Positions 640 through 23,300 of a DNA stretch of 29,145 nucleotides are shown here, in pieces (the first letter of the stretch is position 1; each line of letters opens with the position of its first letter). The notes under the pieces were generated by a model. The model was not told where the DNA came from. It made no database searches and was given only the letters and a program-made list of their open reading frames with translations. The position numbers were made by a program, and so were the translations under genes. The stretch is from positions 1-29,145 of the IMG/VR virus record IMGVR_UViG_3300025707_000026, one strand, 5' to 3'. Source of the stretch: a virus.

Positions 640-818
640 TATCGTTTACCCTCAAATGGTTCGTCCCAGGGGATGTCTCGCCCTAACGCTAGACCATGCC
701 GACGACATAGCGATCCACCTCCCCAAACCCCTAGACCTCCAGAGCATCTGATTATCTTTACAGCTGCGGTTGGTTTACTCCTTAGAGGTTTCCTCTTTTT
801 CCACAAGCGCATCTTCAT
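639..818 (-). CDS. 59-aa basic protein between terL and the Gly-rich genes
   Basis: This gene is found only by reading the junctions. Its ATG at 818 overlaps the terL stop (TAATG), and its own stop overlaps the next ATG (TAATG at 641-637). Both junctions carry the same AAACGATAATG sequence. The product is 59 residues, with a very basic N-terminus (MKMRLWKKRKPLRSK), a Gly-rich middle containing Cys, and an acidic/aromatic tail (IPWDEPFEGKR). The tight double overlap is the main support; no family is recognised. It fills what would otherwise be a 178-base hole in a packed operon. Confidence 0.6.
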   Translation of the reverse strand: MKMRLWKKRKPLRSKPTAAVKIIRCSGGLGVWGGGSLCRRHGLALGRDIPWDEPFEGKR

Positions 819-2272
819 TATCGTTTCACCGCTAAAGGATCATATTCTCTGCGCTTCCTTGCCATGTCACTTCGCTTGCCAGCCATCCCCTTCGGTGCTA
901 CCGGATAAGCAAAAGTGAGTGCCAGGGCATCTGCCATATCCGGAGAAGCCAAACCACGCTTTTTCATATCCTCTTTCTTTTCAAGCTGTATCTTGTTGGT
1001 AGGAGTGAACCCATATTCAACACCGATCAGATCATCCACTAACTCACGGTCTGTAGGGATCGCGCCACCATCCAGCCAATCCTTCATGTTGCCCCACATC
1101 TCTGCTCTTTTGTTGTTGTACCTGGCATCCTCTGCCTTGCTGCCAAAGTTGACCTCAATGCAATCCACATGGAGTTGCCTTAATCGATCAACAACACCTC
1201 CGCCAACGCCACCGCCGTCTACGAAAACAGCATCCGCCTGGTGCAACCGGACCAACTCCGCTACTCTTGCAGCGAGTTGCATTGTGTCCAGACTTCGGTA
1301 CTTGGTCCATTCAATGGTCCTGGCATCGCGTCCACGCCTAAAACAACAAACTGATTGATCGTCACCAAACCTGGCAACGTCGCAGCCGATAATCAAAGGT
1401 TCTTCCAGGTAACACTTAGCTTCCCGCTCTTTAGCATCGTCTACCAGGTCACCTGATATAAACTGCATGCTTGACGCAGAAGGAAATTCTCCTTTCACTC
1501 GAACTTTTATAAAATCACTCTGTTCCCCAAAATCCTGGACCCATTGCTCCAGCTTGCGTTTGTCTGTCATCTTGCAGCTGCGACTGTCTATTTGCCTGGT
1601 ATTCCAGCGGTGTTTGAACTTGCCGAAACATTCTCGGAATCGCCCGGTGTTCCTGGTAGGATTGCCAAAGGTAAACCACATGGCTCCAGGAGTCGTCATC
1701 GCTCCTTCCGACACATCCCAAATACAATCTGGGATAGAGGATGCCTCATCGTAAATAATCAGGACCTCACCATGTTGACCTGCAAAGGCTTCTGAGTTTC
1801 TTTCACTCCAGGGAATAGCGGATGTATACCAAGTTTCAGGGGATGAAACGTGATAAAACTTAGTCGCGGTCCATTCGAACCAGGACTTGACCATTGACCT
1901 TGAGTGCCAGAGTGCCAGCTCTCGCCAGGTCTTAGTTTGAAGTTGCATCTGGGTGTTGGCCGTAACGATCGCATTTAAATTCTTGCGACAACACATGGCG
2001 TGGAGGACCAACCAAGAAGTCAAGGCTCCTTTGCCACAACCATGCCCCGAAGCCGTGCTGGATTGATACCCAGCACCTTCGCCTTCACGAATATGCCGTC
2101 CAACATCTTCAAGCAACTCCGCTTGCCAGACATCAGGACCGGTATGATCTGCCAGGTCACCCTTCCCCCAGGGAAAAACGTACTTAACGAAACCCAAAGG
2201 ATCGTCGCTAAAAGACGCTATGTCTTCAACCAGGTGATCCGCTGCCGTTTTGTTTTGAGTTTCTACATTCAT
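818..2272 (-). CDS. terL: Terminase large subunit
   Basis: A 484-residue packaging motor and headful/end nuclease. The N-terminal ATPase shows a deviant Walker A, SGHGCGKG (75-82), typical of large terminases, and Walker B LIIYDEAS (171-178, acidic pair D175/E176). The C-terminal RNase H-like nuclease shows GCDVARFGDD (D298), AVFVDGGG (D352) and SPDMADAL (D445/D448), the expected acidic metal ligands. The length is usual for the family. It follows the small terminase after an 89-base gap holding an iteron-like repeat (2281-2345). No convincing Shine-Dalgarno site is seen directly before ATG 2272, so initiation may depend on the leader. It works with TerS and a portal presumably encoded beyond the left edge. 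Confidence 0.96.
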   Translation of the reverse strand: MNVETQNKTAADHLVEDIASFSDDPLGFVKYVFPWGKGDLADHTGPDVWQAELLEDVGRHIREGEGAGYQSSTASGHGCGKGALTSWLVLHAMCCRKNLNAIVTANTQMQLQTKTWRELALWHSRSMVKSWFEWTATKFYHVSSPETWYTSAIPWSERNSEAFAGQHGEVLIIYDEASSIPDCIWDVSEGAMTTPGAMWFTFGNPTRNTGRFRECFGKFKHRWNTRQIDSRSCKMTDKRKLEQWVQDFGEQSDFIKVRVKGEFPSASSMQFISGDLVDDAKEREAKCYLEEPLIIGCDVARFGDDQSVCCFRRGRDARTIEWTKYRSLDTMQLAARVAELVRLHQADAVFVDGGGVGGGVVDRLRQLHVDCIEVNFGSKAEDARYNNKRAEMWGNMKDWLDGGAIPTDRELVDDLIGVEYGFTPTNKIQLEKKEDMKKRGLASPDMADALALTFAYPVAPKGMAGKRSDMARKRREYDPLAVKR

Positions 2273-2280
2273 TTATATTA

Positions 2281-2345
2281 AATCTAATAGGTATTGGTAT
2301 AGGTAATGGTAATGTACCCTTTGGTAAGGGTTCGTAAACCGTTAG
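2281..2345. repeat. Iteron-like repeat, second copy of the sequence inside the replication initiator gene
   Basis: Plus-strand GGTATTGGTATAGGTAATGG followed by TAATG, then CCCTTTGGTAAGGG (a small hairpin). Aligned by eye it matches 10438-10501 at about 55 of 65 positions with one gap. It fills most of the terS-terL intergenic space. The frame used in the initiator gene is not a gene here. A 21-codon open frame crosses it leftwards (2349-2284), with AAGGA too close to its ATG to be convincing. Possible roles are an initiator or terminase recognition site, a regulatory hairpin before terL, or a recombination relic. Confidence 0.7.
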
Positions 2346-2361
2346 ACATTTCCTTTATAAA

Positions 2362-2922
2362 TCAAGCCTCTTCTATTTCCTTCCTTCCGGCCCTTTTTCG
2401 GGCCGCATTTACCTCTAAGATATTCACATGCATGTTTGCTATGTTATTTGTCGTTGTTTCTGGTGAGGTTAATTTGTGCCTCTCATACTCCATTTTAAGA
2501 GCAGCGATCTTAGGATGCATCTTCACCTTGGTTGCCATTCCACCACCGTTTGGTAGTTGGAAAACTGTTACTTCCTGGGCTGCTTTCCAAAACTCCGCAG
2601 GAACCTGGTCAGGAGCTTTAAAAGAAAATTCCCTAGTATTAGGGTCATAGTCCATTCCATCCATTATGTTGCTAGTGGCGAGTGCTTTCACTTCAAGCAT
2701 GGCTCGTTCAGCAGTCATTTCTGTTTTTTCTTCTAATTTTTGAAGTTTTTTGTCAATAATTGCCCTAATGTTAGGGTTTGTTAATAACCTGGAAGCAGTT
2801 ACCCTAGACCCTTTTGGGCTAAACCCCGCACGAACAGCTGCTGCGCTGCCATTCTTATCAACTAGATACTCGACAGCAAACTGTTTTTGTTTAGGTGTTA
2901 ACAATCTCTTCTGTTTTTTCAC
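2362..2922 (-). CDS. terS: Terminase small subunit (Terminase_2 type)
   Basis: A 186-residue DNA-recognition subunit of the packaging machine. The first 60 residues have the family pattern: LTPKQKQFAVEYLVDKN, then SAAAVRAGF, a Ser/Arg-rich turn, and ASRLLTNPNIRAII, a small helix-turn-helix domain. A Lys/Glu-rich oligomerisation helix follows. The start codon is GTG at 2922, overlapping the TGA of the 58-aa gene before it (GTGA), so translation is likely coupled. The first nine residues (MKKQKRLLT) are identical to those of that upstream gene, apparently a duplicated 5' end. Confidence 0.92.
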   Translation of the reverse strand: MKKQKRLLTPKQKQFAVEYLVDKNGSAAAVRAGFSPKGSRVTASRLLTNPNIRAIIDKKLQKLEEKTEMTAERAMLEVKALATSNIMDGMDYDPNTREFSFKAPDQVPAEFWKAAQEVTVFQLPNGGGMATKVKMHPKIAALKMEYERHKLTSPETTTNNIANMHVNILEVNAARKRAGRKEIEEA

Positions 2923-3095
2923 ATTTTTAAACTGGGATAATGTTTATATCCAGGGAAATAACAATTCCCCTCACGATCATAGTGATAAGTTCCACCAGGC
3001 AAAACTGCTTCCGACATGATCGCATCATAAAATCTCATTGCATGGAACACATACATTTTCTGCTTATCTGTTAACAATCTCTTCTGTTTCTTCAT
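2919..3095 (-). CDS. 58-aa protein sharing the TerS N-terminus
   Basis: It opens at ATG 3095 inside the end of the preceding gene (31-base overlap), and its TGA overlaps the GTG start of terS. The product begins MKKQKRLLTDKQKMYVFHAM; the first nine residues equal the TerS start, and the DNA repeat covers about 24 bases. The rest is Tyr/His/Gly-rich (GGTYHYDREGNCYFPGYKHY) and unlike TerS. It may be an independent small protein, a leader coupling terS translation, or a TerS-interacting peptide. Support comes from the exact overlaps and the filled gap; function is unknown. Confidence 0.55.
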   Translation of the reverse strand: MKKQKRLLTDKQKMYVFHAMRFYDAIMSEAVLPGGTYHYDREGNCYFPGYKHYPSLKM

Positions 3096-3324
3096 GTTTC
3101 TCCCACATTAAAACCGGTGTTCTGGGTCCTGCGTACAGACACCCGATATTAAAGTCGTAAAACTCGACCGCTTCATCCTGGTCCATTCCATCGCGCTTCA
3201 TCAAGATATCTATAATCTTATCCGCGCTGTAAACCAGGACCTCTTCCCCATCTTTTGTTGTCTGTCCGGTCACCGCTTCATCCAATCCGTCCAGGACAAT
3301 TGCTCCTTCCGGCGCATCAATCAT
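3064..3324 (-). CDS. Conserved small phage protein of unknown function
   Basis: An 86-residue acidic protein. The pattern VLDGLDEAVTG, then VLVYSADKIIDILMKRDGM, DEAVEFYDFNIGCLYAG and TPVLM is one I recognise from a widespread family of small phage proteins with an assigned domain but no established role. It overlaps the previous gene by 8 bases and the next by 31 bases, in the leftward lysis-to-packaging operon. Confidence 0.75.
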   Translation of the reverse strand: MIDAPEGAIVLDGLDEAVTGQTTKDGEEVLVYSADKIIDILMKRDGMDQDEAVEFYDFNIGCLYAGPRTPVLMWEKHEETEEIVNR

Positions 3325-6298: not shown

Positions 6299-6534
6299 CA
6301 GTTTAATTCCTCCGGTCTGGGTTGTTTTCCTCTAAGGTTCTCCGCTGGGTATTCTTCCGCTGGAGATTCTTCAAAATTCTCCAAAGTCCCTTTAAGATAG
6401 GCAAATGATAGCTCTGTCAAAAGATCGTCCGGGGTCACCGTTTTATAAAATTCCCAATTTTCTTCTCGCTTCCCATCCATCTCCATGCCCAACTCAAAAG
6501 CTCCAACAATCTGGTCATATTCCTGCCTGGTCAT
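6298..6534 (-). CDS. MTRQE-family small protein, leftward paralogue
   Basis: A 78-residue acidic protein starting MTRQEYDQIVGAFELGME, with an ending rich in Glu and Pro. It shares its N-terminal half with the 64-aa product of 5610-5804 on the other strand. Its ATG overlaps the RusA stop (ATGA), placing it in the early leftward operon. The family is unknown. Confidence 0.65.
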   Translation of the reverse strand: MTRQEYDQIVGAFELGMEMDGKREENWEFYKTVTPDDLLTELSFAYLKGTLENFEESPAEEYPAENLRGKQPRPEELN

Positions 6535-6902
6535 ATCTTTCTCTCCTTAATCTCGATCACCACCATGCCTTCGGGGACCGCTGGTCCGCGAGCGATCATA
6601 ATCTTATCCACCTGGCAATCGTCCTGGTAAACACCAGCTTGCTGCAAGCTATCCAGCAAAGCCTTTTGGATATTATCCAGGTCGCGTCTGCGCCGATCCG
6701 GCGGGTACGCCTGAATATCGATCTCTACCCTGGCTGTTCCGAACCCTTCAATCTTTCTACGCTTTAATTCCCAGCCAACGGTATCCGCGTAAGCGACCGC
6801 TTTCTTTGCCTTGAATATCACGGCCCTTTTACCCTTGCCATTAATCCGGTAAAGACTATTGACGCTAGGCGGCCAGGGTAGAACTAGCTTAATCTCTCTC
6901 AC
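6531..6902 (-). CDS. rusA: RusA-type Holliday junction resolvase
   Basis: A 123-residue endonuclease that cleaves four-way junctions made during recombination or packaging. Seen: LPWPPSVNSLYR near the N-terminus; then PPDRRRRDLDNIQKALLDSL, with D74 and D76 of the metal site and the conserved Lys (K80); and GVYQDDCQVD with D95. These correspond to the Asp triad and Lys of E. coli RusA, and the length is typical. The start is GTG 6902, overlapping the previous gene by 14 bases. It works with the Sak3 and SSB genes of the same operon. Confidence 0.93.
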   Translation of the reverse strand: MREIKLVLPWPPSVNSLYRINGKGKRAVIFKAKKAVAYADTVGWELKRRKIEGFGTARVEIDIQAYPPDRRRRDLDNIQKALLDSLQQAGVYQDDCQVDKIMIARGPAVPEGMVVIEIKERKI

Positions 6903-7640: not shown

Positions 7641-7777
7641 TTGACGGTTGGGTTAACTTATTGGGAAGAGAGAGGTTGAAGGACTGACTTGGCTAATGTT
7701 ACTTTCCTCTCACGCCGGAAACAGGGGTTCGATTCCCCTTGGGGCTACTTGTTTTCAATAAGTTACAACACCGTCAA
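7641..7777. repeat. Imperfect inverted repeat flanking the attachment core
   Basis: The left arm 7641-7663 begins TTGACGGTTGGG and ends TAACTTATTG. The right arm 7756-7777, read on the minus strand, begins TTGACGGTGTTG and ends TAACTTATTG. About 19 of 22 positions agree apart from one inserted base. The arms flank the tRNA-derived core, as integrase arm-type (P/P') sites do in lambda-like attP regions. Binding by the adjacent integrase is inference. Confidence 0.65.
7707..7750 (+). other. attP: attP core: 3' half of a tRNA-Glu gene
   Basis: From 7707: anticodon loop CTCTCAC (anticodon CTC, 7709-7711), 3' anticodon stem GCCGG, a four-base variable region AAAC, T-arm AGGGG-TTCGATT-CCCCT (7723-7739), then acceptor strand TGGGGCT and A (7740-7747). 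The spacing equals E. coli tRNA-Glu. The bases before 7707 do not pair with GCCGG, and no AGCCCCA or GGCCCCA 5' acceptor strand lies upstream, so this is only a half tRNA. That is the usual phage-borne piece that rebuilds the host tRNA after integration. It lies 50 bases past the integrase stop. Confidence 0.8.
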
Positions 7778-7800: not shown

Positions 7801-8721
7801 TCAAACATCGAATACCCCCACTGCTTTTCGTAACGCTTTTGGTTTTACCCTGGCATAAAATTCCATCGTTACCCTGATAGAGCTATGCCCAAGCAAAGCC
7901 GAGATAACTTCTATGTCCACCCCATGCTCCAAGAGATAACAAGCCGCTGTATGTCGTAGCTTGTGGAAGCTGAACCAGGGATAACCTGCCCTGGTAAACG
8001 CTCGACTTACTGCGATTGAAAGAGCCTGTTTAGATGATGGCAGTTTAAACAACAAAGCATCATCCAATGGCCATGGCACCTGGTTAAATACCTGGGCCAA
8101 CTTATTCGAAATCGGGACTACCATTGGCTTTGGTATTTTGTTTAGCGTGAACCGCACCTCTCGGCGTTTTAAATCTACATCCTTCCTGGTCAACCCAAGA
8201 ATATTCCCTCGACGCATTCCAGTATAGAGAGCCACCTTGCATGGCAGCCTGTACGGCTCATACACATGACTATCTATAACCGCGAGGATTTCCTCCACCT
8301 CCAGGATTTGACCTGCGTGAAACCTCTTCCCTGGATTCTTGAACCGAACATTCGGGAGCTTATACGATGGATCCCCCAGCCGGAGCAACTTTGCAAATAA
8401 CCGTAGTTCTTTCTTCCCGGTAGACTTTACCTTCTGGCATGATATCCGCTCCGCATATTCCTTGGAACGATCCACCGCTTCCGCCAGGGTAAGACTCCCG
8501 AACTCAGGCGCAATGTATTTCCGCAAGATAGACTCCTCTCTATCACTGACCCCATCTTTCTTTAACTTTCTAATAAGAGTCGAAACCCTTACATTCTTGC
8601 GATAGGCCCCCCTTTCCATTTCAATTTTTAATTCATCTAATAGCTTTTTTACACGCTGACTCGGCATATCCATACCCTCCATCCTAGTCAGCCCTTCAGC
8701 TATTGATCTTAGCATATTCAT
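7801..8721 (-). CDS. int: Tyrosine recombinase integrase
   Basis: A 306-residue site-specific recombinase for integration and excision. An N-terminal SAM-like core-binding region is followed by the catalytic domain: R170 in LYTGMRRGN, K195 in TLNKIPKP, H253 and R256 in SFHKLRHTA, H279 in LLGHSS, and the nucleophile Y289 in MEFYARV. All six catalytic positions are present. The gene sits in the early operon directly beside the tRNA-Glu-like core and its inverted arms, so the target is probably a host tRNA-Glu gene. The N-terminus is short for a heterobivalent integrase; arm binding would rest on the first 50 residues. Confidence 0.95.
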   Translation of the reverse strand: MNMLRSIAEGLTRMEGMDMPSQRVKKLLDELKIEMERGAYRKNVRVSTLIRKLKKDGVSDREESILRKYIAPEFGSLTLAEAVDRSKEYAERISCQKVKSTGKKELRLFAKLLRLGDPSYKLPNVRFKNPGKRFHAGQILEVEEILAVIDSHVYEPYRLPCKVALYTGMRRGNILGLTRKDVDLKRREVRFTLNKIPKPMVVPISNKLAQVFNQVPWPLDDALLFKLPSSKQALSIAVSRAFTRAGYPWFSFHKLRHTAACYLLEHGVDIEVISALLGHSSIRVTMEFYARVKPKALRKAVGVFDV

Positions 8722-9145: not shown

Positions 9146-9663
9146 TAAATTCTCCCCTTTAAACTAAATTTTTTAAATTCCGGGTCGTCCTGACTCATGG
9201 CATAACAATCCCCCATTTTCTTGCCGTTTTTATCCTTAAGATTTTTAATCTGCTCTTCAACCAAAAGAGATTCCTTGTCGCCAAATCCGGCTAATCGATA
9301 CCGTGGAAATTCGCCGGTGAATAAAACGTAAAAATCGCAAGGCTTGTTTTTCTTATGCAACCCAGCAAGAAGAAGCCCATTTTCATATTTAGTGACTTTA
9401 ACGTCGTAGGTCCGACCGCGGCGCGTCACCCCATCGGCATCCCCCACAACCCCACTAAGGTCCGGATACAAGTTGAATATTCTGGCAAAAAGTAACTCGC
9501 CAGCGAACCCTTCCCGGTCTGTCGCTTCGCAGGACTGCCCTCCTTTTTTCTGGTCCAGAGTCCCTTTTTTTCGCGCATTCGCATACCGCAGCTTCCCCAC
9601 ATACTTGGCAACAAACTGCTCGGCTTCGGTTAATTCAAAAATCATTGGTAATTCAAGAAGCAT
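9145..9663 (-). CDS. PD-(D/E)XK-like nuclease candidate
   Basis: A 172-residue protein. After an N-terminal helical part comes REGFAGELLFARIF (conserved Glu), then GDADGVTRRGRTYDVKVTK, with an Asp followed by D-V-K as in the PD-(D/E)XK core, and strands CDFYVLFTGE and RYRLAGFG. This helix/strand order suits a small restriction-like or resolvase-like nuclease fold. Catalysis is inferred from the motif spacing. Its ATG overlaps the stop of the preceding replication gene (TAATG). Confidence 0.6.
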   Translation of the reverse strand: MLLELPMIFELTEAEQFVAKYVGKLRYANARKKGTLDQKKGGQSCEATDREGFAGELLFARIFNLYPDLSGVVGDADGVTRRGRTYDVKVTKYENGLLLAGLHKKNKPCDFYVLFTGEFPRYRLAGFGDKESLLVEEQIKNLKDKNGKKMGDCYAMSQDDPEFKKFSLKGRI

Positions 9664-10055
9664 TATTTAAAAACCCCCCTGATAAGTTCCCTGGTTTTCT
9701 GCCTATTAGCCTCGGCCTCCTCTGGGGTCCCGCCCCAGGAAGCTAACGCTTTTTTGTCCTCATCCTCCTCGCGATTCTCCGCCAGTAAAATCTGATTCTT
9801 AAAAGCTGTAATCTTCTTATCCTCGGCTATCTCCTTGGCTGCTTTGATAATCATCGCCGGAACATTGTCCGTATCCCAGAATTTAGTTTCATCCTGGGTG
9901 AGTCGCAGAACCGCAGCCCCAACCTGGGCGGCTGTTAACTCTTTAGCCTTAATCGCTTTGTGCCAATACACTAACTCCCATTCATCTTTTTGCGGCAACC
10001 CAAAGGCATACAGGGCCGCTAGTTGCTCAAGAAATTCATCGTAAGTTATGGTCAT
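9663..10055 (-). CDS. Helicase-loader-like replication protein
   Basis: A 130-residue, largely helical protein: FLEQLAALYAFG, then WELVYWHKAIKAKELTAAQ, and AVLRLTQDETKFWDTDNVPAMI. The layout resembles the N-terminal domain of small phage helicase loaders such as SPP1 G39P: a helical domain of about 65 residues, with the 'Y-x-x-x-(L/I)....V..AV..L' pattern, ahead of a disordered tail. It is coupled (ATGA) to the initiator gene upstream, as loader genes usually are. It would deliver a host DnaB-type helicase to the origin. Similarity is judged by eye. Confidence 0.55.
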   Translation of the reverse strand: MTITYDEFLEQLAALYAFGLPQKDEWELVYWHKAIKAKELTAAQVGAAVLRLTQDETKFWDTDNVPAMIIKAAKEIAEDKKITAFKNQILLAENREEDEDKKALASWGGTPEEAEANRQKTRELIRGVFK

Positions 10056-10891
10056 ACGCCATTCTCCATGAGTTTGGTTTGTTCTTCCTGGACAGGCTTC
10101 CGCGCCAAAAGCCGCTCTATTTGCCTACGCTTGGCCGAGCCGGATGTTTCTTTTTTCTCCACCTGCGGTTTCGCGTTACGGTAGCCATCAAACTTCTTCG
10201 GTTGAAACAAGGTCCTGGGCTGTAGATACTGATTCATCTTCGCATCGCCCTTCCATTGCGCCACCTTGTTATCGATCACCAGCTTGCAATCGTCCACCGT
10301 GTAGCCTTCATCCAACCTGGCACGGATGTTCACTTTGTTAGCTTCAACAAACTTAAAATCCTTGTCAGCCTTGGCATTTAGATCCGCAATGATTTCTAAA
10401 ATTTCCGGCTCAAATTTCCCTTCATTCTTTTTATTAGAATCTAAAGGTGTTGGTAATGGTAATGGTAATGAACCCTTTGCTAAGGGTTTGGTAACGGTTA
10501 GGAATATGTCTTTAAAACAAGGGTATACATCTAAAAATAGATTCCAGAGCGGAGTCTTATTTGTCTGGTTAAATTCGTTAAGAATCCCTCTTTCCACCTT
10601 CGCCGGATTTCCACCAGGGTGATATACCCTGGCATTTTTAACGAACACCATTTCGTTTTCGAAATCATAAAACACGTTCTTCAAAGAACCGTTAGAGAAT
10701 AGTTTTTTAACCGTTCCGGAAGGGATCGCTGTTTCATGGACAATCGTGGCGAATGGAAGTTCGTAGACCCCGGAGTTATTAATATGTTTGTTAGTGATTA
10801 AATATAGGAATAAAAATTTACTGTCTTTTGATGCTGCTAGAACGTCTTTGTCGTTCCAAAGTTTAGTTTGAACGGTCCTATAATTTGACAT
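10052..10891 (-). CDS. Replication initiator (O-like) with Phg_2220_C-type C-terminus
   Basis: A 279-residue protein. Residues 1-110 form a winged-helix initiator domain (KLWNDKDVLAASKDSKFLFL, then NKHINNSGVYELPFATIVHE). A Pro/Leu-rich linker follows (PLAKGSLPLPLPTPL). Residues 165-240 match the phage conserved C-terminal domain (ILEIIADLN, YLQPRTLFQPKKFDGY). The linker is encoded by GGTAAT repeats on the plus strand, so the origin may lie inside the gene as in lambda O. It would bind the origin and recruit the loader encoded just downstream. The gene follows ssb closely. Confidence 0.8.
   Translation of the reverse strand: MSNYRTVQTKLWNDKDVLAASKDSKFLFLYLITNKHINNSGVYELPFATIVHETAIPSGTVKKLFSNGSLKNVFYDFENEMVFVKNARVYHPGGNPAKVERGILNEFNQTNKTPLWNLFLDVYPCFKDIFLTVTKPLAKGSLPLPLPTPLDSNKKNEGKFEPEILEIIADLNAKADKDFKFVEANKVNIRARLDEGYTVDDCKLVIDNKVAQWKGDAKMNQYLQPRTLFQPKKFDGYRNAKPQVEKKETSGSAKRRQIERLLARKPVQEEQTKLMENGV
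10438..10501. repeat. Iteron array, putative replication origin inside the initiator gene
   Basis: Plus strand: GGTGTTGGTAATGGTAATGG and a further TAATG, a 6-base periodic GGTAAT run, then CCCTTTGCTAAGGG (a hairpin) and GGTAACGGTTAG. It encodes the Pro/Leu linker of the initiator. Origins made of iterons inside initiator genes are known in lambdoid phages. A second copy at about 85 percent identity lies at 2281-2345 in non-coding DNA, which argues for a role of the DNA itself. Confidence 0.6.
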
Positions 10892-10910: not shown

Positions 10911-11282
10911 TTAGAAAGGACAATCTTCTTCGCCGAGAGATGGCTCTTCATGATCCTCACCTTTAGCTGGCGCGTCCAACACTTCTACTTTGCTAGCCAC
11001 GACCTTATGCTTGGACTTTTTTTCTCCCGCGTCATTCTCCCATTGCTGGTAGTCTAATCGTCCATCTATGCAGACTGCGGCCCCCTTAGATAAGTTATTA
11101 GCGCAGTTGTCTGCTTCATCTCCCCATACCGTAATATCTACAAAGCAGGTACTCTTTCCTCCGCCTTTTGTGGGGCGGTTAATAGCTAACCCAAACTCGC
11201 CGACCTTTAAACCTGATTTTGTTTTTTTAACATCGATATCCCTGGTTACATTCCCTACTAAAAAAACTCGATTAAAATTCAT
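10911..11282 (-). CDS. ssb: Single-stranded DNA-binding protein
   Basis: A 123-residue OB-fold protein: MNFNRVFLVGNVTRDIDVKK, GEFGLAINRP, CFVDITVWGDEADNCANNLSKG, IDGRLDYQQWEN. It ends in an acidic tail EPSLGEEDCPF, matching the partner-binding DD-x-PF end of bacterial SSB. It protects single strands and recruits recombination and replication enzymes. Its ATG overlaps the previous stop (ATGA), and it sits between the annealing-protein and initiator genes. Confidence 0.94.
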   Translation of the reverse strand: MNFNRVFLVGNVTRDIDVKKTKSGLKVGEFGLAINRPTKGGGKSTCFVDITVWGDEADNCANNLSKGAAVCIDGRLDYQQWENDAGEKKSKHKVVASKVEVLDAPAKGEDHEEPSLGEEDCPF

Positions 11283-11956
11283 TTTGCCCCCTTAAAATTT
11301 ATTTTCTCAGTTGATATAATTTTAAAGCCCTTTAAAGGCTTCCCACCTGTCTTAATAGCTTTAGCTCTAGCGTTATTTATGATCGCTTCCCTATGAGCCT
11401 TAGTTGAAGGGACCAAAAACTCACGGTCCACCTCATCAATGTCCTCGATCGTTACAATATAGTCCGGCTTGAAACTGGACCTCGATCGTAGCTCTTGAGT
11501 CGGCTGCGCATGGAAGGGCGTTTCTGTTTTCATTTCTCGAACCGCATCGATCGCTTCCTGGGGAACTCCCTCTTCGGCTAATTCGAATGCAGCCAGGTCA
11601 GCTTCCTCAATCTGCTTTTGATGCTCCGCCTCTTGACGGTCACGTTCCAACCGTTCACGCTTTGACCTGTACTCGATCAGCAATCCACCTAATTTTTCTA
11701 GTCCGGCCTTGACAGGATCAAGCATGCTTTTTTCTTTGCGCTTCAAAAGGACATGATTCTGATGGGCCATATGGATAAGCGGCCTCCAGTAATCCTCGAT
11801 GCCTTTCTCCAGCGACTTAACCTCTTCGGCTTTTTGCATGGCCGCGTTGTATTCGTCGTCGTTCTGGATCAGCATCACGCAATCCAACTCAACCCACTCG
11901 GCCCTTTTTTTAAGCTCACCTTCCAGCGTATTAGTTTTAACTTGAAGTTGGGTCAT
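11279..11956 (-). CDS. Coiled-coil protein of the recombination module
   Basis: A 225-residue protein with a long charged coiled coil (about 30-135: EEVKSLEKGIEDYW, EYRSKRERLERDRQEAEHQK). Its C-terminal block, VDREFLVPSTKAHREAIIN and KGFKIISTEKINF, is typical of a phage protein often encoded beside annealing proteins (PRxYLVPD-type ending). The exact role is not established; a scaffold or annealing/exonuclease partner is plausible. Start and stop overlap both neighbours (ATGA). Confidence 0.65.
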   Translation of the reverse strand: MTQLQVKTNTLEGELKKRAEWVELDCVMLIQNDDEYNAAMQKAEEVKSLEKGIEDYWRPLIHMAHQNHVLLKRKEKSMLDPVKAGLEKLGGLLIEYRSKRERLERDRQEAEHQKQIEEADLAAFELAEEGVPQEAIDAVREMKTETPFHAQPTQELRSRSSFKPDYIVTIEDIDEVDREFLVPSTKAHREAIINNARAKAIKTGGKPLKGFKIISTEKINFKGAK

Positions 11957-12753
11957 TGGATTCGCCCCACTTCTTTATTGCGCTTTTGTTCCTGGCCGAG
12001 CCTGGTAATCTCTGACTTAAAAAATCCAAGTCGTTCTTCTGGAACATCCGCATAGCTTTTATATCCATGCCCTTTTAATAAAACGACGGCATCTGTTTCC
12101 TTAACGCCCTCGCGCTTACAATGCGCCACGAACACAGGCTTGATGGATTTCTTTTTCGGGCGTGAGATTGCAGGAATTTTCTGATCGCCAAGCGCATCGG
12201 CAGCTGCTTTAAGTGCGACAGAGGCGACCGAGGGGAGTGCAGTAGGAGGAGAATCCACGCTAGCACCCTTGGCCTCCGCCCTCGGTTTTACCTCCGGATC
12301 TGCGCAGTCTTCGGGGTAGGTTACGTTTTCGTAAACACGCATACCAAGCCCAACATGGGCTATCGTTTTGACATAACATCTTTTGATTGCGGTGTTAATG
12401 TCCATTTGGTTTGGGTTGACGATGCACTGGTTTGCATAGTTTGTGACCGGTAAGGTTTCTACCCTGGTAACAGTTTCATCCTTACTTGCTACAGTTATCT
12501 CGGTCCCGACAACAAACCCTTTAACTGCTTCACTACTTATCCCTAGGTCCATCTCTTCCTGGCCCAAAACACGCCAGGTTGTCTTCGGGTAGTTCTGGAG
12601 CAAAATCCGGAACGCAACCGACCACTTGAGATAATCGTACTGATTCCCAGGGCTACCTTTTTTCTCCACATGCGCCGTGACATCAATGTCGTACAGCGTT
12701 TCAAAGATTCCTTTTTTCTCTACAGTTTTTTTCTCTACAGTTTTTTTAGTCAT
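11953..12753 (-). CDS. Sak3/DUF1071-type single-strand annealing protein
   Basis: A 266-residue protein from ATG 12753, chosen because AAGGAG stands 7 bases before it; a longer frame to 12867 would cover the 53-aa gene. The annealing domain (15-165) shows GIFETLYDIDVTAHVEKKG, YDYLKWSVAFRILLQNYP and MDINTAIKRCYVKTIAHVGLG, the signature of DUF1071 (Sak3) recombinases. The C-terminal part resembles a small helical binding domain (CKREGVKETDAVVLLKGHGY). Residues 5-14 are a duplicated TVEKK, encoded by a 15-base tandem repeat. With SSB and RusA it makes a complete recombination set. Confidence 0.85.
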   Translation of the reverse strand: MTKKTVEKKTVEKKGIFETLYDIDVTAHVEKKGSPGNQYDYLKWSVAFRILLQNYPKTTWRVLGQEEMDLGISSEAVKGFVVGTEITVASKDETVTRVETLPVTNYANQCIVNPNQMDINTAIKRCYVKTIAHVGLGMRVYENVTYPEDCADPEVKPRAEAKGASVDSPPTALPSVASVALKAAADALGDQKIPAISRPKKKSIKPVFVAHCKREGVKETDAVVLLKGHGYKSYADVPEERLGFFKSEITRLGQEQKRNKEVGRIQ

Positions 12754-12763
12754 TTTCCTCTCC

Positions 12764-12925
12764 TTAGATAAAGTCTTTATCTTTGCAGCCAGGGAACTCT
12801 TCATCAGCCGGGTCCTGTTCTGGCCCGGAGATGCGGCGGCAGTAGTCACCGCAAAATTCTTCCTCATGCTCCCCCAGTTCGCACCCGCACCCTTCGCAAT
12901 AATCGCTCTTCTTCCAGATGCTCAT
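12764..12925 (-). CDS. 53-aa Cys-rich acidic protein
   Basis: Found by reading the junction: ATG 12925 overlaps the previous stop (TAATG), with GGAG 6 bases upstream; TAA at 12766-12764. The product is MSIWKKSDYCEGCGCELGEH followed by EEEFCGDYCRR, so five Cys lie between residues 10 and 29 in a zinc-knuckle arrangement, then an acidic tail with one more Cys. The gene fills the space before the annealing protein, whose start follows at 10 bases. Likely a small zinc-binding accessory; role unknown. Confidence 0.65.
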   Translation of the reverse strand: MSIWKKSDYCEGCGCELGEHEEEFCGDYCRRISGPEQDPADEEFPGCKDKDFI

Positions 12926-14810: not shown

Positions 14811-14882
14811 TCAGTATTGCGAGGGGAGAAGAAAATACATCCCACCCAGTAATATTGCTATGTAAATAAGTAGTCTAAACAA
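14811..14882 (-). CDS. Possible 23-aa membrane peptide (TTG start)
   Basis: TTG 14882 overlaps the end of the oxygenase gene, with GGGGG about 7 bases upstream. The product is about 23 residues, starting MFRLLIYIAILLGGMYFLLP, a single membrane span. The TGA is followed 4 bases later by the next ATG. Tiny single-span phage peptides exist, but chance cannot be excluded. Confidence 0.3.
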   Translation of the reverse strand: MFRLLIYIAILLGGMYFLLPSQY

Positions 14883-15432
14883 AAGCTGGCCCCCAAAGCC
14901 ATAGCACTAATGAATAACGAACCCCTCTAGTAACTGGACAAACTCTATGCCAATCACGCGAATCGAAACATATAACACTACCTTGTTGCCTTTTGCTTGG
15001 AGCATCTGGTTTTGCCGGACCGTTAAAAAATTCTAAATCCCCTCCATCATAACTTTCAGGGTCGCTTAAATTGGCCACTAATGTTATCTTCCTATCTGTT
15101 CTATCTGGGTTAGTTGGGACGCTATCCTTATGCCAGTCATAAAATCCGCCTTTATTGTATTTTGTGAATTGCGGGACATCGGATCCCACGCTTCGCTGGT
15201 AATTAAAAACACTGTATCTAAACTTCGTATCATTAGCTTCAAGCAGAAACTGGAATAACGATCTACTTAATATGCCGTGTTCTCTAACCCAATGTATTTG
15301 ACAAGCCCTTAGTTTTTCATTCCCAGGGTGTTCCCCAGCTTCTCCGTTCCCTAACTCCAAATCTTTATATTGTTCAATGATAGATTCACATTCATTCAAA
15401 CTAATCCCATTATCCCAAAGAAGAGTAGCCAT
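14875..15432 (-). CDS. 2-oxoglutarate/Fe(II)-dependent oxygenase (PKHD-like), third of three
   Basis: A 185-residue double-stranded beta-helix dioxygenase. Iron ligands H101 and D103 are seen in GGFYDWHKD and H162 in SRDWHRV; R172 (RGVRYSLVLW) would bind 2-oxoglutarate. DGGDLEFF and the GSVICFDS strand precede the distal His as in PKHD-type hydroxylases. It couples 2-oxoglutarate decarboxylation to hydroxylation of an unknown substrate. Its ATG lies two bases after the stop of the second oxygenase. Lying in the late operon behind the fibre genes, it may modify virion proteins or host targets (inference). Confidence 0.88.
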   Translation of the reverse strand: MATLLWDNGISLNECESIIEQYKDLELGNGEAGEHPGNEKLRACQIHWVREHGILSRSLFQFLLEANDTKFRYSVFNYQRSVGSDVPQFTKYNKGGFYDWHKDSVPTNPDRTDRKITLVANLSDPESYDGGDLEFFNGPAKPDAPSKRQQGSVICFDSRDWHRVCPVTRGVRYSLVLWLWGPAFV

Positions 15433-15433
15433 A

Positions 15434-15991
15434 TTAATTTGTAAAACTCCACCAGCCAGTAGCTATATATTTTTCCGTGCTTAACGGAGGGTTCCCCCGA
15501 TGAGTATGCGTAAAAGCCGCTGGGAATATAACAACATCCCCTTTGCACGGTCTTATTCTTTTATGATAATAAAGAAATTCTGTTTCCCCTTCTCCTTCTG
15601 GCATATCGTTTAAATAAATAGCCCACACCAAAACTCTGGTAGCAAGATTAAAATCCCCATCCTCGCAATGCCAATTATAAAACCCGCCTCCTATGGGTGT
15701 TTTTTGTAATTTTATACGCCAACTTGAGTAATTCATGGTCCCTAATGAGGCACTATATTTATTTCTATATTCCGTTGAAGCTCGCTCTAAAACAGAATTT
15801 GTTTCGTTGGTCAGAAGTAAAGGATGATCTTCAATCTGGTCTAATAATATTTGGAAATCTACCCTAAGAGGGCTACAAAACCGATACTCTTCCTTTTTGC
15901 CATTTAAAGTATGTTCAAATAAATTAATAAGGTCATCGCAAAATCTATCCGGGGCGTATTTTTTATATATTCCTATAAAATCGTCTGCCAT
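15434..15991 (-). CDS. 2-oxoglutarate/Fe(II)-dependent oxygenase, second of three
   Basis: 185 residues from ATG 15991, which overlaps the stop of the first oxygenase (TAATG). The core reads GGGFYNWHCEDGDF (H108, E110 as an H-x-E variant of H-x-D), WAIYLNDMPEGEGETEF, KGDVVIFPAAF, then THTHRGN with the distal His (H162 or H164). Then comes EKYIATGWW, whose Lys would take the usual Arg/Lys place for 2-oxoglutarate. This order is typical of 2OG oxygenases in marine phages. It is only distantly similar to its neighbours, so not a recent duplicate. Confidence 0.87.
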   Translation of the reverse strand: MADDFIGIYKKYAPDRFCDDLINLFEHTLNGKKEEYRFCSPLRVDFQILLDQIEDHPLLLTNETNSVLERASTEYRNKYSASLGTMNYSSWRIKLQKTPIGGGFYNWHCEDGDFNLATRVLVWAIYLNDMPEGEGETEFLYYHKRIRPCKGDVVIFPAAFTHTHRGNPPLSTEKYIATGWWSFTN

Positions 15992-16662
15992 TAGTTGCAA
16001 TTGTAATCGTCTTTTAATTTAAACCCGGCAAACCACGGAGGTAACCCTAAAAACGGTCTACCATCGTATTTATTTTTTTCTGCCCCATCTAATGAAGCAT
16101 CGTTGTAGTGCAAAAATACTTGACCACAACTCTCCCCATTAAATTTCTCACGCCAATGCTCCATTTTTTCTCCTTCGTATATCAACATATCACCAGGCTC
16201 TAATAATACTTCTAAACCCTCTTCCTCTTGTTCCCCAGAAGGCTCTAAGAATATAGACCAAGGATCACCTCCTAAATTTAAAGTGGCAGAAACCTCACAA
16301 CTGTATCTATCCTTGTGTCTTACAAGCTCATCACCATTTTTATAGAGCCTAGCAAAGCTATAAGTTGGGCTTAATTTCATTGACAGTTCTTTTTCTAAAA
16401 TTGGTTGTACCTTTAACAATAAAGTTTCCATTCCTATATCGCCATAATGACTATATGTGTCTGGTGCTTGTGGATCATTCCACATTCCCCATGCCGTTTC
16501 GTTCTTTGGGATGTACCCAGTATCAACAAGTAATTTCGTTACTTTTCTTTTAGTGCGAAAATAATCATAACAAAACCCGACTAGCTCTTTTGATATAGCG
16601 TTCCTTATGACTTTATACACATCACTCTTTGGGGATAGCTTTTTTAATAGCTTTAATGGCAT
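15991..16662 (-). CDS. 2-oxoglutarate/Fe(II)-dependent oxygenase, first of three
   Basis: A 223-residue protein. The core is YSFARLYKNGDELVRHKDR (H116, D118), ATLNLGG, PWSIFLEP, LLEPGDMLIYEGEKMEHWRE (H169), and GQVFLHYND. The pattern 'YKNGDELVRHKDR..CE.SATLNL' is that of a cyanophage/marine-phage oxygenase family. The gene starts 41 bases inside the end of the preceding fibre-associated gene. Iron ligands are complete; the 2-oxoglutarate-binding residue is not certain by eye. Confidence 0.87.
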   Translation of the reverse strand: MPLKLLKKLSPKSDVYKVIRNAISKELVGFCYDYFRTKRKVTKLLVDTGYIPKNETAWGMWNDPQAPDTYSHYGDIGMETLLLKVQPILEKELSMKLSPTYSFARLYKNGDELVRHKDRYSCEVSATLNLGGDPWSIFLEPSGEQEEEGLEVLLEPGDMLIYEGEKMEHWREKFNGESCGQVFLHYNDASLDGAEKNKYDGRPFLGLPPWFAGFKLKDDYNCN

Positions 16663-18241: not shown

Positions 18242-20259
18242 TAGGAAAGACCTCCAAAATCAATTTGTAAGTTAGCACCAGAAACAGTGCCAGTATTAGT
18301 TATGTTATTCGATTGACAATCAAGCGACCCTCCCAACTGGGGCGAGGTATCCGAAACGACATCAGCTATCCCAGCGGATATGCTAGCGAATATAGAACCA
18401 GTGTAATATTTCAAAACATTACCTGTTTCGTCATACCACAAATCTCCTGCACTCGGAGAGCCTGGGGCTGATGAGGCAATCGTATATTCATCGCTATATC
18501 GGTTAATGCTGGCCTCGTTGGTAGCAGCCGTTGTGACATTCGCTGAAATCCCAGCCACGGTCGTTACGTTGGCACTAATCCCTGCAACCGTTGTTACGTT
18601 AGCCGATATCCCTGCCACTGTATTAACACTTGCTATGTCATCAGCTACGTCTGTAATATTATTACCAGATGACGTTGTAACTGCATCAGCAATAGAGCCT
18701 AAGTCCTCTTCATAAACCAACTCACCAGCAACAATATTGATGTTTGTCTGATTTTCCGCTGATGGAGCGGTTGATTGCCAAGCTGATCCATAACTCTTCA
18801 ACTCATTCAAGGATGTATCAAAATATAAATCACCTGCATCGTTGTCTGATACAGGAGCAGATGAAGCGACTCTATATCGTTCAGCGAAACTATTTACTCC
18901 TGTAATATTTGTTGCGGTAGTATTCACGTTGGCAATTGACCCTGACACGGTATTTATATTGGCAATTGACCCTGAACAGTTGTCCATAGCTGTTACATTA
19001 CCAGCCGTCCCAAGCGTATTCATATCAGCCACTACGTCAGCAGTCCCAAGGGTGTTCATATCGGTCACCACGTCAGCTGTACCAAGGGTATTCATGTCTG
19101 CGACAACATCGGCTGTGCCTAAAGTATTCATATCAGCAACTACATCCGCCGTACCGAGTGTATTCATGTCTGTGACAACGTCCGCTGTGCCAAGTGTATT
19201 CATATCGGCAACTACATCTGCGGTTCCGAGCGTGTTCATGTCCGCAACAACGTCAGCCGTACCAAGCGTGTTTAAGTCGGCTACTACGTCAGCAGTACCC
19301 AGGGTATTCATATCGGCAACCGCGTCACTTGTACCGAGTAATGCCATCGCCGCTACATTTGCTGATGTGCCAAGTAAATCCATATCGGTAACAACAGCAC
19401 TAGCGGCTAACGTATTAATGTTTGTTTGGTCTGAACTGGTAGGAGTGGTTCTAAGCCAGGTCGTCGTACCCAGGTCATAGACCATCATCACGTTATTTGA
19501 GGTATTGAAATAAAGGCAGCCATCTACTAGGGCAGCCCCATCATTATCAACGCTAGGATCGGAAGACTTCGCCCCCAGGAACCGATCATCGAAAAGATCG
19601 TAACTGGCCGCTGCCGCTGCCGCGCTGGTCGAACTGGCACTCGCCGAAGTCGAACTTGCACTCGCGCTGGTACTAGCCGCTGCCGCCGAACTCGCAGCCG
19701 CCGCAGATGAGGCAGCTACCGTAGCAACCTGGTCAACATAGTCATCAACTGATACGCCGACATCACCGTCTGAATCAAAGACAATAGCCTTGTTAGCTCT
19801 TAATGTATTTGAGGTTAGTTCTACCGAGGTCCCGGCAGAATCTGAAACTGGTATTTGAATGGATCGGCTGACTTTTTCATCAGCCCTTCTGGCGAGAATA
19901 GTGCTTCTATCTAACGCATCTTCAATAACATTTGGGAAGAACCCACCACCGGACACAAGGTCAGTCCCTTGCGTATACGCTGGTTCGTTAAGTATGGTTA
20001 GTTTTTCGCCAACCGCGATTGGACTCCATGCACCGGTCGTCGTAATCGATCCCCCAGGATTGTTATCCTGGTCAGCGTTTAGACTGACAGTATAGTCGGT
20101 CGTTAATGTCTTGGTTGATTCAACGCCAGATGAGTTGGTGAATACGACCGCCAGGTCTGAGCCGGTCGAACTAAATACTTTATAGGTAAATGCGAATGTC
20201 GTTGTGGAAGCGTTCCCTGCAAATGGTCCCGCTTTAATACTTTCAGTGGATATCGTCAC
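18241..20259 (-). CDS. T7-type tail fibre protein with tandem repeats
   Basis: 672 residues from GTG 20259, chosen because GGAGG lies 6 bases upstream (an ATG at 20289 lacks one). Residues 1-140 match the T7 gp17 N-terminal tail-attachment domain: TTTFAFTYKVF, TLTTDYTVSL, IAVGEKLTILNEPAYTQ, NVIEDALDRSTILARRADEK. An Ala/Ser coiled stretch follows, then eleven 12-residue repeats (291-422), a block repeating VAGISANVTT three times, and two SAP..NDAGDLYFDTS/SAGDLWYDET modules. No C-terminal receptor domain is seen, so the collar fibre encoded next probably forms the tip. Confidence 0.88.
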   Translation of the reverse strand: MTISTESIKAGPFAGNASTTTFAFTYKVFSSTGSDLAVVFTNSSGVESTKTLTTDYTVSLNADQDNNPGGSITTTGAWSPIAVGEKLTILNEPAYTQGTDLVSGGGFFPNVIEDALDRSTILARRADEKVSRSIQIPVSDSAGTSVELTSNTLRANKAIVFDSDGDVGVSVDDYVDQVATVAASSAAAASSAAAASTSASASSTSASASSTSAAAAAASYDLFDDRFLGAKSSDPSVDNDGAALVDGCLYFNTSNNVMMVYDLGTTTWLRTTPTSSDQTNINTLAASAVVTDMDLLGTSANVAAMALLGTSDAVADMNTLGTADVVADLNTLGTADVVADMNTLGTADVVADMNTLGTADVVTDMNTLGTADVVADMNTLGTADVVADMNTLGTADVVTDMNTLGTADVVADMNTLGTAGNVTAMDNCSGSIANINTVSGSIANVNTTATNITGVNSFAERYRVASSAPVSDNDAGDLYFDTSLNELKSYGSAWQSTAPSAENQTNINIVAGELVYEEDLGSIADAVTTSSGNNITDVADDIASVNTVAGISANVTTVAGISANVTTVAGISANVTTAATNEASINRYSDEYTIASSAPGSPSAGDLWYDETGNVLKYYTGSIFASISAGIADVVSDTSPQLGGSLDCQSNNITNTGTVSGANLQIDFGGLS
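18994..19389. repeat. Eleven tandem 36-base repeats in the fibre gene
   Basis: Units encode ADMNTLGTADVV. Nine are close copies (A/T at position 1, M/L at 3, one ending GNV); the two at the upstream end are degenerate (TDMDLLGTSANV, AAMALLGTSDAV). The protein repeat is nearly perfect while third codon positions differ freely between units. That indicates an old array kept by selection on the protein, not a recent slippage expansion. Confidence 0.9.
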
Positions 20260-20346: not shown

Positions 20347-23300
20347 CTATTGTTTTGAGTACCCAAATAATGGGGCTGTTACCTTATCTGTTTTCCCTTC
20401 TGCCAGGTCTAAGCTGCCCCAGATCAAACGCTCAACCTGGACCGCTGGCCAATGGAAAAACACGCCGCCTGTTTTATTAGCAGCCTTCCATAACTTCTCA
20501 TCATTCTCCATTTGTCCCACTTGCGTAGCGAATTTCCCTGCTTCTGCAATCCCCCTCATACCCGCTGGTCCCTGATACTGGGAGAACCCTTGAGCCATCC
20601 CGACAAACTCTCGGCCTATGAAAATTCCGCTCAATGGATATGCGATATGATCCCTCACGATCTTGTCGCGCATACATGCCCAATCCTTGCCATCGTCACA
20701 TTCTCCCCTTAACAACGCCCCCCTGACATATTCTTCGATGAGGATAGGGAAAGTGTAGAGCAAAAGAAAGTCAACCCCCAGGCGAGCGATTGAAGTAGGG
20801 CTTTTAAAGTTAGTCCCTTTAATACTGTCTGTAGAGAGGTTATAGGTTGTTTGGAAATAGGACATGAAATTAGTCCATAGCTTTTTCAAAGGACCGCCTC
20901 GCTGAATGCTTGCCAAATCCTTAATGTGTCCTGACCCCTGGGAATCGATCACCGCCTGATCTGCCATCGCGATCGAGTCCTGCTCGCTGGCATTCTCTGC
21001 CTGGGCTTTTTCATAAGCCCCAAGCCAGGTCGGGATATCTGCCATCAACTGCGCTTTAGCGATCAGGTAAAAGAAAGTATCATCTATCGGCCCTCTCACC
21101 TTACTGACAAAACCAGTACCGGCAATCTTGTTACGAATTTCGTTGATCTCTCGATTCATCGTCTTGCCGCGTAGGCGCATGAAAGAACTATGTTCGTACA
21201 TGAATTTAACCGTACCATCCATCGCCGCTGCCCCACTAAAAAACCTCAACATGGCTTTTGCCACATAGATAGGACCGACTCGGACCATCGACTGAGTAAG
21301 TCCCAGCGGTTGCAGCAAAGAAGTCCCAAGGTTCCATCCCATAGCTGCTATAGACATACCCTGCCGGAGCCAGTTCATTGCTTTTTCATGGGTTTGTACG
21401 GAAGGAACATCGCCAGCTGCGATATCGATAACTGTATTTTTTAACGCCTTATAAGTCGCTGCTCCATAATGTGCCGTGATCGCATCCACCATATCCTGAT
21501 GCCCCAGGATTTTATTGGTATCGATCAACCATTCATGCCAGGCAAGATCATGGATTACCTGGTGAACATGCGAAAAGATAACTCCGAAATCAGCCTTTAT
21601 TTTAATATTAACTTCGCCCTCCGCCCTAGCCTTCGTATGTCCTCGCGCTGTCGTAGCCCTGCCAGCGGCACCTAATTTCGCCTGGTCAGCTGCCGTCTTA
21701 GCCAGGTTGTCAAACGCGATATTGCTTTCATCTTGGTCGAATGTGATAGGGAAGTATCCGCCTCTGATTTGCCCTACAGCGGTGCCTGTATTGACCGGTA
21801 ATGCTTCTACTTTTTCCGGAGCTACCCCTGTAACCCTTCGTTCTTTTGCCTCGATCAAAGCCCAGTATTCTTCGATGTAATCCCACATCCCCTGGACAAA
21901 CGTCCAATCCCTTTCATCAAGAGTGGAAAGGATATGGTTCTCAACCTCGGACGCGGACAGGCCATACCCATCGGTCACCCTGGCACGGTTGGTTTCGTTC
22001 CCCCAGTTCAAAGCAATCATAATACGCTCTTGCTTTGACAGGCTAATATCGATATCAGGCACATACTCCAACTTATACAAACCGCCCTTTAGGGTAGTAA
22101 ACTCCAGGGTGTTATAAACGCTAAACAACTCACCGAGCTTGATGTTCGCCTTTTCCTGCATCTCGGCTTGCCAATCCGCCTGGGCATTCATCTTCTTAGT
22201 TACAAACTGCCAGAATGGACCGTTTTTTAAACCATCAAAAACACGCCCGATATTCCCGAATTTACGGTGTTCTGCCATGAAACTCAGCTTGTCTTTTTTC
22301 CATTGGTCCTGGGGGTTGTTTAACCCTAATCGTTTGTCTGAATCTTTGATCTTTTTCTTTTTAGCGGTCGCGTTGATTGTAAGCGTAATCTCATTGACCG
22401 CTGCTTGCACATCGCGTTTTTCCTGTTCCAGGAGAAGTTCGTTCTTGAGTCTTCCCAAGTGATCGATATTTTTTATGGTATCGTACAACCCTCTAAATTC
22501 ATCCATCGGGACCTGTCGATAATGCGTGAGTTCAATCTCGCCCAGGAGCCTTGGGTCTATATTAGGATTATTCCCTTTTGCTAGTTCTGCCTGTACCCAT
22601 TGAGATAGCGTTTCTCTACGTTTCAGGGCCTTCTGCGTGACGCTTTTTCGAATATCAAATTTCCCCAGGAGTCGGTCGATCTCGATCATGTATTCTGGAT
22701 CAATAGCTTTCCTGGCCCCCTTGCTATCCAGCCTGTTAAAGAAACGGACATTCCTGTCTACCTCTTCAAGAGCCTTGGACGCTACTTTTGCAAAGTGATG
22801 ATTTAATACCGCAGCCCTTTTGTGGTCGGTAGCCTCATCTAAATTACCGCGCTTGAGAGCATTCTCTGCTAACCGGTTAGCCCTGGCTTCCGCAGCTGCG
22901 AACTGACTCGGTTTAATATCCATGATTTTCATCCTGCCGATTTTCTCTTCCGCCCAGGCTCGCGCAGCCTTCATCAAAACATTTCCTTTACCGACTCTCT
23001 TGGCCAATGCGCTTAACTCTGCATGCACCGCCTTGGTCCTGGCTTCGTTATGAAGAGCTTCATCAACCGCCTTGTCTATGCTTGCGCGGTCGCCCAGGGT
23101 GCCAAATAGTTCCAGCATCCTGCGGTCGGTTTCTTCCTCGATCGCATCTCTCATCGGTTTCGCTTTAACCAGGGCATGTATCATTTCGTCTGCCGAGGAA
23201 TACCCAGCCAGGTCTTTAAGCAGGTTTACATTAATAGCGTCTTCCGAGTCGGAGATTAAGCCCCAGCGTCCTTTTGGCAGCGTCTTCCAAATAGCTTCCT

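Follow-up and report, generated by a model that had tools for sequence, protein, structure and literature searches.

Why should part of a replication initiator gene be repeated as DNA between the two terminase genes of the same phage? The question was raised by a viral sequence of 29,145 nt (IMG/VR record IMGVR_UViG_3300025707_000026, positions 1 to 29,145), here called the window. An earlier reading of the sequence, the original prediction, had noted about 55 matching positions between the two places, with a GGTAAT periodicity and a hairpin, and had suggested a replication-type element at the packaging genes.

Genes and matching stretches

The two stretches are indeed similar. When 2281-2345 and 10438-10501 were globally aligned, exactly 55 positions were identical, with 9 mismatches and one 1-base gap, and the GGTAAT periodicity was found in the sequence. 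A longer ungapped match (2272-2345 and 10428-10501) was 78% identical over 74 nt, and within-genome comparison gave a gapped match of the two copies covering 105 nt with 79% identity (E=1.1e-16). When the initiator gene was compared with the rest of the window, the next-best match after this one had an E value of only 0.23. The score of the pair was 103, against 35 for the best of 2000 shuffles of one copy.

Profile matches gave terS, terL and the initiator gene the same identities as previously proposed (Table 1). One copy is coding and belongs to the linker of the initiator (the in-gene copy), while the other is non-coding and is situated wholly inside the 89 nt that separate terS from terL (the gap copy), as had been stated. 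All three genes are on the minus strand, and both sites are therefore best read on that strand, as was done throughout. The copies have the same orientation and, following transcription, the gap copy comes 8.1 kb after the in-gene copy.

The initiator scored 90.7 bits against PF09524, where the curated cut-off is 27, which places it in the Phg_2220_C / DnaD-like family. No sequence match to solved structures was found for it, and a Pfam search of the gene after the initiator (9663-10055) for a G39P-like helicase loader was negative. Besides the resolvase, SSB and annealing protein genes in Table 1, a weak exonuclease-like match was seen at 11279-11956.

Several other features of the window were recorded. 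The stretch AGGGGTTCGATTCCCCTTGGGGCTA at 7723-7747, beside an integrase gene (7801-8721), resembles a tRNA 3' end and is a candidate attachment site; ARAGORN recognized no whole tRNA at this place. A 2OG-Fe(II) oxygenase gene (14875-15432) is followed by two similar-looking genes (15434-16000 and 15991-16662), the assignment covering the first only. A tail fibre gene at 18949-19416 contains 36-nt tandem repeats (LED-repeat-like), and an ORF of 2903 amino acids occupies the end of the window (20347-29058).

Table 1. Features of the window discussed in the text
Feature	Position	Strand	Basis
terL, terminase large subunit	818..2272	-	phrog_2, phrog_5902; PF17289 weak
Gap copy, AT-rich tail (AGATTTAATATAA), candidate unwinding element	2271..2289	-	direct reading, geometry table
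terS-terL intergenic gap, 89 nt, holding the second copy	2273..2361	-	ORF limits
Gap copy, four TACC (GGTA on +) at 6-nt spacing (2308, 2302, 2296, 2290)	2290..2311	-	direct reading, geometry table
Gap copy, three 7-nt cores 11 nt apart (AACGGTT 2337-2343, AACCCTT 2326-2332, AAGGGTA 2315-2321)	2315..2343	-	direct reading, geometry table
terS, terminase small subunit, Terminase_2-type	2362..2922	-	PF03592 E=1.2e-27
RusA-like Holliday junction resolvase	6531..6902	-	PF05866 E=3e-16, phrog_34
Replication initiator, DnaD-like N-terminus, Phg_2220_C	10052..10891	-	PF09524 E=6e-26; phrog_1701, phrog_428
In-gene copy, AT-rich tail	10424..10451	-	geometry table
In-gene copy, three TACC at 6-nt spacing, encoding the PLPLPTP linker	10452..10467	-	direct reading, geometry table
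In-gene copy, three cores 11 nt apart (AACCGTT 10493-10499, AACCCTT 10482-10488, AAGGGTT 10471-10477)	10471..10499	-	direct reading, geometry table
Extra core pair (AACGGTT), 22 nt apart, initiator codons ~59-68	10687..10715	-	sequence reading
SSB	10911..11282	-	PF00436 E=8e-28
Sak single-strand annealing protein	11953..12867	-	PF06378 E=3e-32

Layout of the two copies

Both copies were found to have a common layout on the minus strand, consisting of 7-base cores of the form AASSSTT at 11-nt steps, TACC at 6-nt steps and an AT-rich tail. The core variants were AACGGTT, AACCGTT, AACCCTT and AAGGGTT, and in both copies the first TACC starts 10 nt past the last core. The tails hold AGATTTAA-like words, and that of the gap copy extends into the ATG of terL.

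The copies are not equally equipped. The initiator gene carries an extra pair of cores (10687 and 10709) about 200 nt upstream of the linker cluster, at positions kept in L003, L089 and L151 (compared sequences carry an L number), while the gap copy is without such a pair and its third core deviates (AAGGGTA). With fewer cores and this deviation, the gap copy could bind the initiator without firing. In the initiator genes of L096 and L124, too, the part encoding the N-terminal domain has a further core cluster, near codons 59-68.

Constraint on the DNA

The original prediction took conservation to be at the level of DNA, and this was borne out. Synonymous change in codons 121-160 of the initiator gene was about a third to a half of that in the rest of the gene, namely 3/29 vs 61/197, 5/23 vs 89/173 and 5/23 vs 78/170 in three comparisons, not wholly independent of one another (p = 0.014, 0.006 and 0.022). 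The reduction indicates that the in-gene copy is under DNA-level constraint. The gap copies kept the origin anatomy and had no common reading frame. Conservation of a peptide was considered for the gap, since a linker-like frame is readable in the window (LTVYEPLPKGTLPLPIPIP) and in L015; it was ruled out by L002 and L005, which are without a start or a shared frame, the 7-nt period of L005 breaking the frame.

A strict pattern of the element (AASSSTTNNNNAASSSTWCWWTACC) occurred once in 385 alphaproteobacterial genomes, and the single occurrence was in an initiator gene on a contig of an Emcibacteraceae MAG. At this frequency the pattern is not one that chance readily produces; as to the type of initiator, the contig gives no more than a hint of Alphaproteobacteria. 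Looser arrays, with AACSGTT at 11-nt steps, were seen in 78 stretches of viral contigs from diverse phages (L091-L167), and 6-nt repeats, which vary in sequence, come after many of these arrays. Judged by this recurrence, AACSGTT arrays with 6-nt repeats appear to be a widespread origin-like design. In contigs that were scanned whole, such an array was usually confined to a single place or split into two clusters some 200 nt from each other.

Occurrence in related phages

Close relatives were obtained from IMG/VR by a terL search, and their terS-terL gaps were read directly. Five distinct gap elements were recognized, represented by the window and L001, by L002-L004, by L005, by L006 (with L159) and by L015. 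One geometry was common to 13 elements, including these 5 from terS-terL gaps: core spacing was 11 nt, rarely 12, the distance from the last core to the first TACC was 10 nt (11 in L005), the TACC period was 6 nt (7 in L005) and the tail was AT-rich (74-89%). The bases themselves vary, with AACGGTTACTAAACCGTT in L002-L003, AACGGTTGGTCAACCGTTGGTC in L015 and CTACTACC in L005, while L006 has four cores at 11-nt steps; local scores of gap copies between lineages were 50-102, vs 184 for identity. The position within the gap varies as well. In L015 the element comes right after terS, with two small ORFs and about 500 nt between it and terL, and in L006 a small ORF separates it from terS while the element adjoins terL, which indicates that it is tied to the gap and not to one gene edge. 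The form of the element was kept in L015, where TerS is only 36% identical.

Both sites were visible in three contigs, the window, L003 and L015, and all three carried both copies, the sample being small and of shared ancestry. In each, the sole strong match of the initiator gene elsewhere was the terS-terL gap (E=1e-16, 5e-12 and 2e-14, respectively); in 11 comparison genomes or genome parts the echo of the initiator was no better than ~1e-3. The own-genome pairing of the copies was the best of six possible pairings by a small margin only, a no more than suggestive sign that the copies of one genome evolve together.

The original prediction had named relatives lacking the second copy as evidence against it, and here the outcome was divided: the copy was kept in five divergent lineages and was absent from L008, L017, L168, L169 and L151. 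In L008 and L017, with related terS and terL, the gap is filled by an ORF, and the replication proteins are of the Lin1244_N and DUF1376 types with linker repeats of their own. L168, L169 and L151 have the same initiator type with other terminases, and their whole contigs hold the in-gene array only; terS and terL of L168 overlap. In L007, L009 and L010 the gap between terS and terL is 0. Five INPHARED phages with distantly related Phg_2220_C-like initiators gave no echo. L168, L169, L151 and the five INPHARED phages thus contradict any general rule by which a second copy always accompanies this type of initiator, and the second copy is not essential to the initiator type, since initiators of the same type do without it beside other terminases. 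Several of the relative contigs are fragments, and absences weigh less than presences. A search with a TerS profile gave no additional gap element, nor did a prophage search in one scan of bacterial genomes. On the terL tree the presence of the element needs two changes, and one old gain with a loss suffices. Judged by this distribution, the gap element goes with the initiator and not with TerS.

Possible functions of the gap element

From its layout and distribution we regard the gap element as an initiator-linked, origin-like DNA element. With moderate confidence we take it further to be a second, non-coding origin-like site that is bound by the phage's own initiator and works late, as has been proposed for SPP1. 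The initiator would bind the cores at the two sites. Of these, the in-gene copy, with its extra upstream cores, would be the early theta origin; the gap copy would come into play afterwards, either starting replication a second time or halting a fork that runs into bound initiator, or both. A fork stalled at the gap copy could then be cut and restarted by recombination with RusA, Sak and SSB, so that theta circles are changed into concatemers, which are what the terminase encoded beside the gap copy works on. Genes that such a theta-to-sigma switch could use, namely RusA, Sak and SSB, were all found in the window, and their presence makes this route fit the phage. The replication-type element foreseen at the packaging genes thus held up in its origin anatomy, across five lineages, while its variants as a packaging site or as a regulator of terL fared worse.

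Regulation of terL is an unlikely alternative, in which initiator bound at the gap would repress or delay terL and the late genes until the level of free initiator drops. In the window, L002-L005 and L006 the element does come to a few bases from the start of terL, where a good ribosome-binding site could not be made out. The position upstream of terL is not fixed, however, given the two small ORFs that intervene in L015, and no sigma-70 promoter was detected in the gap of the window, none scoring above shuffles. In addition, a simple operator would not need the kept 6-nt repeats and the AT-rich tail.

That TerS, alone or with the initiator, reads the element as pac seems decidedly improbable. 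The element adjoins terS, the pac of SPP1 overlaps the start of gene 1 (PMC6316719), and ICP1 pac is close to a proposed rolling-circle origin (PMC7145576). Against this, the site does not track TerS among relatives, its form being kept in L015, at the low TerS identity given above, and the gap being missing in L007, where TerS is 67% identical; furthermore, the same element is found inside the initiator gene, where a packaging role is not expected. We give equally little credit to a combined late origin and packaging start, in which initiator at the gap site would act directly with the terminase. If true, the same DNA would end circle replication, start concatemers and mark the packaging start.

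As an observation separate from the element, part of the terS 5' end recurs upstream of the gene (3050-3099 vs 2877-2926, 80% over 50 nt), and an ORF at 2919-3095 on the minus strand starts with MKKQKRLLT, as terS does. The duplicated 5' end is a candidate place for pac, because the pac of SPP1 overlaps the terS start.

Passive duplication, by which the in-gene origin got into the gap through an accident of recombination and merely persists there, has a slim chance. It would agree with the small number of lineages, most terminase relatives being without the element, and the terL tree is compatible with one old gain plus a loss. Diverged non-coding DNA is, however, unlikely to keep the 11-nt spacing, the 10-nt phase and the repeat period, and the gap is otherwise closed in relatives such as L007, L009 and L010.

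An RNA feature (terminator, leader or small RNA) is largely refuted and hardly credible, for although the hairpin of the original prediction exists as the inverted repeat CCCTTTnnTAAGGG, with a short AACCCTT/AAGGGTT stem, and the L006 gap element folds better than most shuffles (z=-2.2), the other four gap elements gave z of -0.05 to -1.2, so that folding lends no support to a conserved RNA hairpin, a terminator scan of the gap was negative, and the stems, which pair differently between lineages, arise as a by-product of neighbouring near-palindromic cores.

Comparison with other phages

The reading that we favour, a second origin-like site bound by the phage's own initiator, can be set beside four known systems. 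In phage lambda, ori consists of iterons and AT-rich DNA inside gene O, between the two domains of the initiator. The in-gene copy resembles it in having iterons and AT-rich DNA within the initiator gene, and differs in iteron sequence and length; lambda is not known to have a second copy at the terminase genes.

Francisella phage KIRK has a Phg_2220_C replication protein with iterons nearby in AT-rich DNA (PMC7924643). It is thus similar in having an initiator of the same Pfam C-terminal family and iterons in AT-rich DNA; unlike here, no second copy at the terminase genes is described in the accessible part of that source. For Vibrio phage ICP1, a late rolling-circle origin near pac has been proposed from read coverage (PMC7145576). 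This parallels the gap site in placing a proposed late origin close to the packaging site, while no sequence copy of an early origin is described in the accessible part of that source. ICP1 offers an independent hint that a late origin may lie close to pac.

The closest likeness is to SPP1, which has two similarly organised origins, with oriL in gene 38 and oriR in a non-coding part of the late region. Its origin-binding protein gp38 binds both, a fork block at oriR has been proposed as the trigger of the switch, and the model of the switch uses a resolvase, an exonuclease, an annealase and SSB (PMC6316719, PMC3485210). Similarly, in the window one origin-like array (10424-10499) lies within the initiator gene and a second, similar site (2271-2343) in non-coding late-region DNA, with direct repeats and an AT-rich part at both, and genes for an annealase, SSB and a Holliday resolvase are present in the genome. 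The likeness is one of site layout and of recombination genes and does not extend to a demonstrated relationship of initiator family or repeats; binding is proven for SPP1 and predicted here. Furthermore, oriR of SPP1 is 12-13 kb away, in a segment that holds the moron genes 8-10, rather than in a gap between the terminase genes. A second origin-like site beside late genes is already known from SPP1, here at a different genome position; the gap element is most likely a second initiator-bound, origin-like site of the oriL/oriR kind, set apart by its unusual and suggestive placement between terS and terL. The passage from circle replication to packaged concatemers is still largely a model from SPP1, lambda and few others. 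A short copy of an in-gene origin between the terminase genes of several lineages offers a clean test object for it, with two sites, one initiator and one position linking replication to packaging.
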